A DNA stretch of 64,000 bases. Source: Desulfolutivibrio sulfoxidireducens (GTDB taxonomy: Bacteria; Desulfobacterota; Desulfovibrionia; Desulfovibrionales; Desulfovibrionaceae). Below, in pieces: positions 59,642 to 63,850 of the stretch. The position numbers were made by a program, and so were the translations under genes. The notes beneath the pieces were generated by a model. The model made no database searches. It was not told the DNA's origin and saw only the letters and a program-made list of their open reading frames with translations. Positions within the stretch are counted from its first letter, which is position 1, and every line of letters begins with the position of its first letter. The stretch spans positions 2,702,001 through 2,766,000 of the forward strand of contig NZ_CP045508.1 of NCBI RefSeq assembly GCF_013376475.1, in the 5' to 3' direction.

Positions 59642-59873
59642 ATCCACGGGGATTGACCACAGGGGCCTTAAGAAAAGGGGCGAAACCGCTCGAGAGAGAG
59701 GTCCGAGACCGGCTATCCACAGGGATTGACCGCAGGGTCTTGAGAAGAGGGGCGAAACCGCTCGAAAGAGAGGTCCGAGGCCGGCTATCCACAGGGGTTG
59801 ACCACAGGGGACTTGAAAAAGGGGGCGAAACCGCTCGAAAGAGAGGTCCGAGGCCGGCTATCGACGGGGTTGA
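59642..59873. repeat. 73-bp tandem repeat array, three full units plus a partial
   Basis: Units begin ATCCAC at 59642, 59715 and 59787 (lengths 73, 72, 73 bp); a partial unit starts at 59860. Each unit holds ACCGCTC-GNRA-GAGAGGT, which on the plus strand folds into a hairpin closed by a GNRA tetraloop (GAGA in unit 1, GAAA in units 2 and 3). The mixed period breaks any reading frame, so the array is not coding. The whole block lies between the stop of the 545-residue protein and the promoter of the iron-sulfur gene. No spacers of CRISPR type are present. Confidence 0.85.
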
Positions 59874-59903: not shown

Positions 59904-61541
59904 CTACCCCGTATCCCCAAGCCTGCGGAAAAGCTCGCGGGCGTCGTCGATCACGAGTTCCACCTCCGCGCCCATGCCCGAAGAGGCCGCATTGGCCTCG
60001 CTGTCCACATCCTCCAGGGAGATTTCCCGTGTGCCGAACAGGGACTCGACATCGGCTCCAACCCCGGCCTCGCCCTGGTAGTGCGTATACAGGCCGTACA
60101 CGCCCCGATCATCCTTTTTCACGAATTCACGCATGGAGACCTGGCCCTGGGCCGTGACCACCCCGTCCTCATAGGCCGTTTCCTCGTGGCCGCTCGATCG
60201 CAGCCTGGACGGGAACTCGTCCTCGGTCAGGCCCTTGCCGGTCTGAAAACCGCCGCTCTTGAGAAGCAGGTTCTTCCTGACCTCCTCCGTGTCCGTGGAC
60301 ACGGCGGCAAGCTCGCCGTCGCGGTAGGTCCGGCTGGTGAAGCTTATCTGATACGGATTGTCCGCATCGCGGTATTTCGCCAACTGATCAGCCAGGTTGA
60401 AGCCCCCGGCGGCCATGTCCGAGTCCAGGCCGTTCACGAAGGTATCGGCCGCCCCGGCGTTCTCCTCGCGGCTGGCGGCGAGAAGACCGTCGGCCGATAG
60501 CGGGGTACCGCCGCTGAAGGTCTCCCGGGCGATGCCGAAGGTTTCCAGGATGCCCGGCCGCTCCGGCAGCTTCTGCCCTTCGCCCGGCACCAGCTCCATG
60601 GTCAGGGTTCCCTCCTGCTGGCGCACCAGTTCCCCCTTGTTGTACCAGGACACGGCCACCGTCTGGGTCAGGTCCGTCCCCTGTTGTACCTGGTCCGTGA
60701 GGTTGGACTGGACCAGTACGTCGCCGTCCGCGTCATAGCTGGTAAACTGCATGGTCAGGGCGTTGGTGTTGGCCAGTTCCGCGGTGGACCAGGCCGCCAG
60801 GCCGTTTACGGCCGAGCTTGTCCGGTTGGTCGTATTTTCGGCCTCCAGGCGGTTGTGGATGGAGGCGGTCTGGGACACCTTGCCGTTTTCATATTCCACG
60901 ATATCGGCCTGATAGTCGCTGTTGACGTAGTCCCGGGTCAGGGTTCCGGCCATGTCCTCCAGGGTGGCGGCCTCGCCCAGTTCACCGCCGCCAACGAGCG
61001 AGGCGCTTACGGAGGAGGCCTGGACGGACATGCCGTCATGCAATTCCCGCACGACCTTGCCATTTTCGAACCACTGCACGTCCCGGCGCAGGGAGGCCAG
61101 GGTTTCGGCGTCCGTGCCGCCAAGGCCGGTCAGTTCGGCATGGGCCTTCTGGGTGACCTTGCCGGCGACATCATAATATTCCGTATCCCAGACGGCCCGG
61201 TCGCCGGTAATGGAGCCGGTTTCCTTCCTGGCCAGCACGCCGTTGTCATATTCGAGACGCTCCATCTTCGCGCCGTCGATGGTCGTGACCTGGGTGTTGC
61301 CATTGGCAAGGCGCGTGGTGCCGCTCTCAAGGTCGAACAGACTCGTCCAGGAATTGACCGTGAACGTGGCCTGGCTCTGGGACGCGGCCTGCTTCCGGTA
61401 GGCCGCGGCGGAGATGCTCACCGTATCCGAGGCGGCCGTGGACGCGACGCGCTGGGCGCTGGTGGTGACGGTCTGGGTGTCGTAGACGGAAATGCCCAGG
61501 CTTGCGGAGACAAGGGACGCGGAGGAAACGCTCAAGGCCAT
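59904..61541 (-). CDS. Unknown 545-residue protein with recurring YxNG motifs, sigma-28-controlled
   Basis: Not recognised as a known family. The N-terminus (MALSVSSASLVSASLGISV, then Ser/Thr/Ala-rich to about 60) is like the polar starts of flagellar or secreted proteins and has no classical signal peptide. The body repeats a short motif Y/F-x-N/D/K-G-x-V/L at residues 98 (YDNGVL), 158 (FENGKV), 217 (YENGKV), 300 (YNKGEL), 406 (YRDGEL) and 457 (YEDGVV), suggesting tandem beta units. ATG at 61541 follows GGAG, and a sigma-28 promoter lies upstream. A flagellum-associated or flagellum-exported role is inferred. Confidence 0.8.
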   Translation of the reverse strand: MALSVSSASLVSASLGISVYDTQTVTTSAQRVASTAASDTVSISAAAYRKQAASQSQATFTVNSWTSLFDLESGTTRLANGNTQVTTIDGAKMERLEYDNGVLARKETGSITGDRAVWDTEYYDVAGKVTQKAHAELTGLGGTDAETLASLRRDVQWFENGKVVRELHDGMSVQASSVSASLVGGGELGEAATLEDMAGTLTRDYVNSDYQADIVEYENGKVSQTASIHNRLEAENTTNRTSSAVNGLAAWSTAELANTNALTMQFTSYDADGDVLVQSNLTDQVQQGTDLTQTVAVSWYNKGELVRQQEGTLTMELVPGEGQKLPERPGILETFGIARETFSGGTPLSADGLLAASREENAGAADTFVNGLDSDMAAGGFNLADQLAKYRDADNPYQISFTSRTYRDGELAAVSTDTEEVRKNLLLKSGGFQTGKGLTEDEFPSRLRSSGHEETAYEDGVVTAQGQVSMREFVKKDDRGVYGLYTHYQGEAGVGADVESLFGTREISLEDVDSEANAASSGMGAEVELVIDDARELFRRLGDTG

Positions 61542-61623
61542 GGTGAGACTCCAGGATACAGCGTGCTGCTCGAAACCATATCGTCCGTGGGTGCGGAGAT
61601 TTTCCCCACCCCCTTGGGAATAT

Positions 61624-61650
61624 GTATCGGCTATCCCGGAATGATCTTTA
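61624..61650 (-). promoter_or_regulatory. Sigma-28 (FliA) flagellar promoter
   Basis: On the minus strand TAAA (61647-61650), exactly 15 bp, then GCCGATAC (61624-61631) match the sigma-28 consensus TAAA-N15-GCCGATAA at 11 of 12 positions. It lies about 80 bp before the 545-residue protein gene. Confidence 0.8.
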
Positions 61651-61756: not shown

Positions 61757-63850
61757 TCACGACGCGTTTGGCAACCCGCACCGTTGCTCGGCCCGGTGCA
61801 CCTCGCAAGGGAAAAGACGGTTCGGCGTACCCCCGGAGACAGGGTCGAAATATCCATCATTGGACAGGATGTTGATGTTGGCCTTTCTGTCCGAGGGATT
61901 GCCCCAGCCGAAGTCTATCCAAACCAGCCCCCGTCGCGTCTGTTCGCTGAGTCTGGCCCTGACCGATATCATCCCTTGAGGCGACCTCACCGTCACCTCA
62001 TCCCCCTCGCCAATGTTTCTCGCTGCGGCATCACCCGGATGAATATACACCAAGGGATCAGGATACGTTTTGACAATGTTCACGAGGTTTTTAAATTTGG
62101 TATGCACGAACTGGGAAGGCCGACGGCTTGTACCAAGCAGGGAAAAACCATTCTCCGCAAAAATGTCGAGCGACAATGACTCGCCAGCCGGATTCTCATA
62201 CACCGGCATGGGCCGCACGCCAGCGCTTGCAAACCACTGGGAAAAAAACTCCACTTTCCCGGATGGCGTGTCGAATCCATTTTCAATATACTTCCGATAC
62301 CGGACTTTCGGCGTGGCGTAGACGATCTGCTCCTCTTCCAGCCGCTGCAAGGTCACGCCGTTGGCCCTGACCATGTAGTCGACCCACCCCCTGTCGTCCT
62401 GAAACGGATAATCCCGGTGCAGACCCATTTTTTTGGCCAGTGCGTATTCGACATCAAAAACCGTCCGCGCCTCGCCGACAGGGTCCACGATGGGACGCGC
62501 CAAGGCGACAAAACCGCCCTCAACACTCGAATACGCCCGGTATCCATAGCTTTCAAAGGTGGAAGCCATGGGAAGGACCAGATCGGCGAGTTCCGTGGTG
62601 GCTGTGGGGAAGATGTCGGTGACCAGCAGGAAATCCAGCTTTCCCAAGGCCATTCTGGTCCGTCTTTCGTTGGCCTGCACCAGGACGGGATTGCCGTGGT
62701 GGACGATCATGGCTCTGGGCCGGCCGTGCTCCTCGCCAAGAAGGGCCTCTTTGATGGCCGGAAAGGGGACGTGGGGCAACAGGGGGAAACGTTCAAACCA
62801 CACCCGTTGCCTGGTCGGCAAGGGCTTGGTGGGGAGGATCGAGGGCTGCGGGAACGGCATGAACACGTTCCCTCCCGGGACATCCAAATTCCCCGTAAGA
62901 CAGATCAACATGGCGATGGTGCGCACCGCATCCACGCCGTTGACATACATGTCCAGTCCGTTGCCTTCGTAGAGCGCCGCCGGCTTGGCGGCAGCGTAGG
63001 TTCTGGCCAGGGATTCGATGGTTCCCGCCGGGATCCCCGTCAGCCCCTCGGCCCATTCCGGAGTACAGGCCCGCACATGCCCGGCCAGTTCCGCAAGGCC
63101 GGTGGAATATCCGGCCACAAACTCTTTTTCGTACAACTCCTCCTTCACGATGACATGGATCATGGCCAGCCCAAGCGCGGCATCCGTACCCGGGTTGATG
63201 CGTATCCACTCGTCGGCCTCCCGCACCGTCGCCGAGAAGAAGGGGTCGATGCAGACGATTCTCACGCCGCGCTTTTTGAGTCGGGGAAGGATCGTCTTCA
63301 GGCCGTCGTGAGCCGCATAGGAGGCGAACCGTTCCACGCCAACGGGGTTGCTGCCCCAGAATATGACCAGTTTGGTGCGGTCGTAGTCGGGTTCGGTCCG
63401 CACTCCCCCGGTGACCGCCTTGAAGGCCGTCATCCGGGGGGCCATGCAGATGTTCCCTATCCCGGTGAGATTCGGAGACCCGAATTCCCCCATGAATTGG
63501 AGAAAACCGTCCCGGGCATGATAGGAAACCGGGGCTCCCGTGCAGCGCGCCAGGCTCAACGGACCATGCGTGTCGCGTATCTCCGTCAGTTTTTCGGCCG
63601 CGATGTCCAGGGCCTCGTCCCAGGATATCCGCTGAAAGCCTGTGGACGTTTTCAGCAATGGATACCTGAGCCGGTCCCCGGCCCGGACGATCTCCGCATT
63701 GGCCGCCGCCTTTGGACAGCAGCGCCCCCTGTTGACGGGATGTTCGGGATCCCCTTGTATGAACAGACGTCCGGTGGCGCTTTTGCGGACCACGAGGCCA
63801 CAGTTGGTGTGGCAAAATTGACAAAGAGTACGGACTGCTTGATCACCCAT
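61757..63850 (-). CDS. Molybdopterin-dependent oxidoreductase, catalytic subunit (DMSO-reductase family)
   Basis: 697 residues from ATG at 63850 (AGGAG 12 bases upstream; ATGs at 63892 and 63922 are alternatives). The N-terminal 4Fe-4S site has Cys10, Cys13, Cys17 and Cys45 (CQFCHTNC; CCPKA). The likely Mo/W ligand is Cys135 in GNICMAPRM, as in the Cys-ligated branch that includes thiosulfate/polysulfide reductases, Nap and acetylene hydratase. The C-terminal dinucleotide-binding domain is seen (VYIHPGDAAARNIGEGDEV in part). No Tat signal and no electron-transfer or anchor subunit nearby, so probably cytoplasmic. Substrate is not assignable. Confidence 0.88.
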   Translation of the reverse strand: MGDQAVRTLCQFCHTNCGLVVRKSATGRLFIQGDPEHPVNRGRCCPKAAANAEIVRAGDRLRYPLLKTSTGFQRISWDEALDIAAEKLTEIRDTHGPLSLARCTGAPVSYHARDGFLQFMGEFGSPNLTGIGNICMAPRMTAFKAVTGGVRTEPDYDRTKLVIFWGSNPVGVERFASYAAHDGLKTILPRLKKRGVRIVCIDPFFSATVREADEWIRINPGTDAALGLAMIHVIVKEELYEKEFVAGYSTGLAELAGHVRACTPEWAEGLTGIPAGTIESLARTYAAAKPAALYEGNGLDMYVNGVDAVRTIAMLICLTGNLDVPGGNVFMPFPQPSILPTKPLPTRQRVWFERFPLLPHVPFPAIKEALLGEEHGRPRAMIVHHGNPVLVQANERRTRMALGKLDFLLVTDIFPTATTELADLVLPMASTFESYGYRAYSSVEGGFVALARPIVDPVGEARTVFDVEYALAKKMGLHRDYPFQDDRGWVDYMVRANGVTLQRLEEEQIVYATPKVRYRKYIENGFDTPSGKVEFFSQWFASAGVRPMPVYENPAGESLSLDIFAENGFSLLGTSRRPSQFVHTKFKNLVNIVKTYPDPLVYIHPGDAAARNIGEGDEVTVRSPQGMISVRARLSEQTRRGLVWIDFGWGNPSDRKANINILSNDGYFDPVSGGTPNRLFPCEVHRAEQRCGLPNAS

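Follow-up and report, generated by a model that had tools for sequence, protein, structure and literature searches.

A predicted beta-repeat protein family of the Desulfovibrionaceae with a sigma-28-type promoter and a FlgM-like N-terminal motif: a candidate substrate of flagellar export

We analysed a stretch of 64,000 nucleotides of the Desulfolutivibrio sulfoxidireducens genome (contig NZ_CP045508.1, positions 2,702,001 to 2,766,000), referred to here as the window. The reading of an open reading frame for a 545-residue protein on its reverse strand, made in a first-pass annotation, was confirmed (Table 1). The frame opens with an ATG, preceded about 9 nt upstream by GGAG, and is adjoined by a molybdopterin-oxidoreductase-like gene that ends at 61757 and by an iron-sulfur heterodisulfide-reductase-like gene at 59384-58041, both labels coming from a reading of the sequence only. 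Around the ORF we found no intrinsic terminator on the strand of the gene and no sigma-70 promoter. Directly downstream of it, at 59642-59873, there is a tandem repeat with a 72-bp unit (3.2 copies, 89% matches). Every locus in which the core of this repeat was found comes from this one genome position, and no match to an Rfam family was obtained.

Table 1. Features of the gene and its product, listed in the direction of transcription (window positions).
Feature	Position	Strand	Basis
Sigma-28-type promoter, TAAA (61650-61647) - N15 - GCCGATAC (61631-61624)	61624..61650	(-)	Pattern and ortholog conservation
ORF of the 545-aa protein, unnamed Desulfovibrionaceae family	59904..61541	(-)	ORF reading and 29-member alignment
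Ser/Thr/Ala-rich disordered N-terminus, residues 1-38; proposed export signal region	61428..61541	(-)	pLDDT, composition
DTVSISAAA, residues 39-47, motif D-x-V-x-I/L-S-x-x-A	61401..61427	(-)	Present in 29/29 members; shared with FlgM
Predicted beta strands, long hairpins with Y-x-N-G-type turns, MORN_2-like, residues 74-316	60594..61322	(-)	AlphaFold2, Pfam, motif count
Predicted short helices joining the two beta regions, residues 331-389	60375..60551	(-)	AlphaFold2
Predicted second beta-hairpin block, residues 397-505	60027..60353	(-)	AlphaFold2
Predicted C-terminal helix, residues 518-541	59919..59990	(-)	AlphaFold2

Full-length orthologs of the protein (28-73% identity) were found in 27 of 199 Desulfovibrionaceae genomes and nowhere else that was searched. 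An alignment of 29 members has 15 invariant columns and 19 that are nearly invariant. We used a profile made from these members to search the 348 order genomes and 395 genomes drawn across the phylum. It matched in 41 of the 348 order genomes, all of them Desulfovibrionaceae, a few of the matches being short and N-terminal only, and it gave no match in other families among the 395 phylum-wide genomes; these counts describe a sample of genomes. A scan of the genome contigs gave a single locus, in a Halodesulfovibrio MAG. One genome carries three family copies in tandem (G156:C1:687214-692866, locus L080), two of which (L024 and L031) have a TTAA-type -35 element with CCGATAC upstream.

Flagellin is present in all 27 carriers and absent from 24 of the 199 genomes, a weak co-occurrence (P = 0.024) by a statistic that ignores phylogeny. 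Since most flagellated relatives do without the family protein, it appears to be accessory and not a core part of the motor. No gene is kept beside the family across genera, so its function cannot be read from genomic context. Neither the family nor a FliA regulon of Desulfovibrio was the subject of any paper that our literature search returned.

Upstream of the gene lies a sequence that resembles a promoter for sigma-28 (FliA). The E. coli sigma-28 consensus is TAAAGTTT-N11-GCCGATAA. The box found here scores 11/12 against TAAA/GCCGATAA and its -10 element ends 82 nt 5' of the ATG, which bears out the first-pass description of a nearly perfect and correctly placed promoter. The pattern TAAA-N15-GCCGATA occurs once in the window, where shuffles give an expectation of 0.00. 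In the whole 4.16-Mb genome it occurs three times, as does a reversed-pattern control. When one mismatch was allowed, there were 16 matches compared with 13 for the reversed control at a spacing of 15 nt, and 12 compared with 11 at a spacing of 16 nt. Thus, the box alone is not decisive, and we rejected such whole-genome counts as proof of a regulon.

It is the conservation of the box in the orthologs that makes it convincing. We scored TAAA-N15/16-GCCGATAA within 150 bp of the start with a threshold of at least 10/12, and used as controls 277 neighbouring genes of the same loci, these being mechanical ORFs. A box was present at 20 of the 29 family genes, compared with 2 of the 277 neighbours (Fisher P 2e-22). 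One member (L017) has a 12/12 box, and orthologs that keep the box are as low as about 30% identical. The other nine members have a box of 9/12 or worse near a start whose position is, for several orthologs, uncertain. In one case (L006) the start had been set too far downstream; the ATG that matches the N-terminus of our protein adds its 10/12 box, which raises the count to 21/29 and leaves eight members with a poorer box. Of the 21 best sites, 19 also have the E. coli-type G at position 5 of the -35 element, a position that did not enter the score. Because the gene neighbours are not conserved, the box has stayed attached to the gene while its surroundings were rearranged.

The genome encodes FliA (TIGR02479, 236 bits; cut-off 189.6), together with six flagellins and FlgL. 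Similar boxes precede its genes for flagellins, FliD (L154), FlgM (L145, L176) and FlaG (L169; Pfam FlaG, PF03646), as well as an MCP-like gene (L162). These patterns suggest that the gene of the 545-aa protein is very probably controlled by sigma-28, as had been proposed at first pass.

A beta-repeat fold is predicted for the body of the protein. The AlphaFold2 model, based on the 29-member alignment, has a mean pLDDT of 82, with 301 residues at 90 or above, and its body is almost entirely beta, the longest strands of the hairpins reaching 19 residues. The first-pass annotation had noted at least six recurrences of Y/F-x-N/D/K-G-x-V/L; six strict copies were found, at residues 98, 158, 217, 300, 406 and 457, compared with 0.06 in shuffles. 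In the model these repeats are the turns of the hairpins, and their glycines are 76-100% conserved, except in the first repeat (45%).

The protein cannot be assigned to a named family, because its MORN_2-like repeats stay below the Pfam cut-off. It scores 19.7 bits against Pfam MORN_2 (PF07661), for which the cut-off is 29.6, and weak matches to this model (E <= 1) occur in 14 of the 29 members. Searches of Pfam, NCBIfam, PHROGs and PDB sequences gave nothing above threshold, and neither Pfam nor NCBIfam gave a match to Flagellin_N or another named axial domain, or to the YD/RHS repeat models. We rejected a phage origin, for which the PHROG search returned no match. Foldseek found no close solved structure in the PDB; the matches listed there had TM-scores of about 0.2 or less, most being outer-membrane barrels and one a Teneurin, and were set aside as generic beta-sheet likeness. 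In the viral library it returned MORN-repeat proteins, one with a probability of 1.00, at low TM-scores. The first-pass view that the family is an unrecognised one holds after both HMM and structure searches.

The N-terminus differs from the body. Residues 1-41 are disordered in the AlphaFold2 model (pLDDT below 50), and the share of S+T+A+N+Q is 63% in residues 1-38 and 37% in the remainder. There is no sign of a signal peptide: over the first 60 residues, the hydropathy of a 15-residue stretch peaks at 1.54 (family median 0.55). The earlier observation of a Ser/Thr/Ala-rich N-terminus without a signal peptide is thus upheld, and an unstructured N-terminus without a Sec signal is what was expected of a flagellar type III export substrate. 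In all 29 members this segment is followed by D-x-V-x-I-S-x-x-A. It is 16-53 residues long (median 39; the value of 16 reflects a start misplaced downstream), rich in Ser, Thr, Ala, Asn and Gln, and without a hydrophobic core. Among 301 other neighbouring ORFs, two family paralogs being set aside, only one has the motif in its first 110 residues. In the order, the majority of FlgM orthologs also have the motif, about equally far from the start; in this genome it reads SDTVTLSGDA. No match to the Pfam FlgM model (PF04316) was found in any of the 29 family members.

The family is also depleted of cysteine: it has 0.03 per 100 residues, whereas control proteins from these loci have 1.32, and cysteine is lacking altogether in 25 of the 29 members but in only 1 of 97 controls. 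A low cysteine content is typical of flagellar axial proteins. In this genome, FlgM contains none, nor does the readable part of FliD, and the flagellins contain 0-2.

We searched three genomes with a DNA pattern for the N-terminal motif. It matched FlgM, the family, a 139-aa gene and a coiled-coil protein, and the remaining matches look like chance. The 139-aa gene (L168, G000:C1 2815369-2815844) lies just upstream of flgM behind a perfect TAAA-N16-GCCGATAA, has DEVTISREA near its N-terminus and gave no convincing Pfam match. The coiled-coil protein, in another genome (L149), joins the motif to an 11/12 box. It resembles a 161-aa Ser-rich coiled-coil protein (L152, G000:C1 311766 onward) that came independently from a promoter search of our own genome and that has GDTVTISAEG, a sigma-28-type box and a weak FlxA-like Pfam match below the cut-off. 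In several unrelated proteins, a FlgM-like N-terminus thus goes together with a FliA-type box. Directly behind sigma-28 boxes of 11-12/12 there are three ORFs of 63-65 aa (L167, L170 and L173; G000:C1 304747, 656132 and 1866726), for which Pfam gave no convincing match. There is also a second, shortened FlgM-like gene, which lies behind TAAA-N16-TCCGATAA (L138, L172; G000:C1:1002581-1002817), and the two congeners have similar weak FlgM matches.

We propose, with a probability of roughly 0.6, that the 545-aa protein is a late, FliA-dependent substrate of flagellar type III export that acts as an extracellular beta-repeat protein. Transcription by FliA from TAAA-N15-GCCGATAC, with the gene as a unit of its own, would begin after completion of the hook-basal body and the export of FlgM. 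The protein would then cross the flagellar type III export apparatus in an unfolded state, directed by its disordered N-terminus of about 38 residues together with the FlgM-like motif. Outside, the cysteine-free, MORN_2-like hairpins would fold into a long sheet-like repeat protein, whose place may be the filament, the cell surface or the medium. There it probably serves as an accessory factor, in adhesion, at the surface or in biofilms, and not as a motor part. We infer the export step, which we hold with the same confidence, from the FlgM-like motif, the disordered N-terminus and the depletion of cysteine, all of which support it indirectly. As the front end resembles that of a flagellum-exported protein, the repeat protein probably leaves the cell through the flagellum.

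The main rival to export is a role inside the cell. The protein could be FliA-controlled but cytoplasmic, its motif contacting FliA, FlgM or the export gate and so tuning late flagellar gene expression or export. This is the main rival because the FlgM domain match opens with the motif: in FlgM, the alignment to PF04316 begins at these very positions (DTVTLS in this genome), so the motif could serve in binding sigma-28 rather than in export. However, the region of FlgM that follows the motif is absent from the family and the remainder is a large beta-repeat protein, a near-absence of cysteine is unusual among the proteins of these genomes, and the motif is also found in unrelated coiled-coil proteins behind sigma-28 boxes. 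We therefore consider a cytoplasmic role unlikely.

Less likely still, the protein may be timed by FliA and act at the envelope or outside, but exit by another route, the shared N-terminus being a convergent flexible linker. Its composition has a surface or export character that would suit this explanation, as would the absence of conserved flagellar gene neighbours and the fact that MORN_2-like repeats are not specific to flagella; however, the family has no Sec signal peptide, and its motif lies about as far from the start as it does in FlgM, a known flagellar substrate. Last, a chance promoter match in a protein unrelated to flagella would fit the similar genome-wide frequency of the box and its reversed control, but it is very improbable given how the box is kept in distant family members and how rarely it precedes control genes.

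The export of the 545-aa protein may be part of a wider arrangement, which we put forward tentatively. Desulfovibrionaceae may possess modular FliA-controlled export substrates, in which one FlgM-like N-terminal address, composed of the disordered segment and the motif, stands before cargos unrelated to one another (a MORN_2-like beta sheet, coiled coils and small proteins) and the motif is a flagellar export tag. If this is true, the flagellum of environmental bacteria would double as a late secretion system of general use. To our knowledge, flagellum-secreted non-motility proteins come mostly from pathogens, and there is no agreed sequence rule for flagellar export signals. D-x-V-x-I/L-S-x-x-A is a short candidate whose role in export is directly testable. 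Through the family itself, environmental sulfate reducers would possess an exported protein whose timing follows the flagellum and whose promoter and motif are of the FlgM type.

The family can be compared with several known systems. Like FlgM, it has the motif about 35-45 residues in, a FliA-type promoter and little or no cysteine, and the Ser/Gly-rich N-terminal stretch of FlgM can be likened to its N-terminus; however, the family protein is five times longer and lacks the C-terminal region of FlgM. MORN_2 (PF07661) shares with it the Y/F-x-N-G-x-V/L turns between beta strands, but has tight repeats of about 22 residues, whereas the turns of the family are spaced by 25-106 residues and its strands reach 19. 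FlxA and FlaG are likewise sigma-28-dependent accessory flagellar proteins behind FliA-type boxes, but are unrelated in sequence and fold. In Campylobacter, the flagellum exports FlgM, among other non-structural proteins, by means of an N-terminal sequence (PMC2764114). The Fed, Cia and FspA proteins of C. jejuni are non-structural and not required for motility, their N-termini direct flagellar export, and the Feds are co-expressed with flagellar genes (PMC12445086, PMC2764114). We liken our family to these proteins by analogy, with export inferred in our case: its members are proteins of about 570 aa, built of predicted MORN_2-like beta hairpins, in sulfate reducers.
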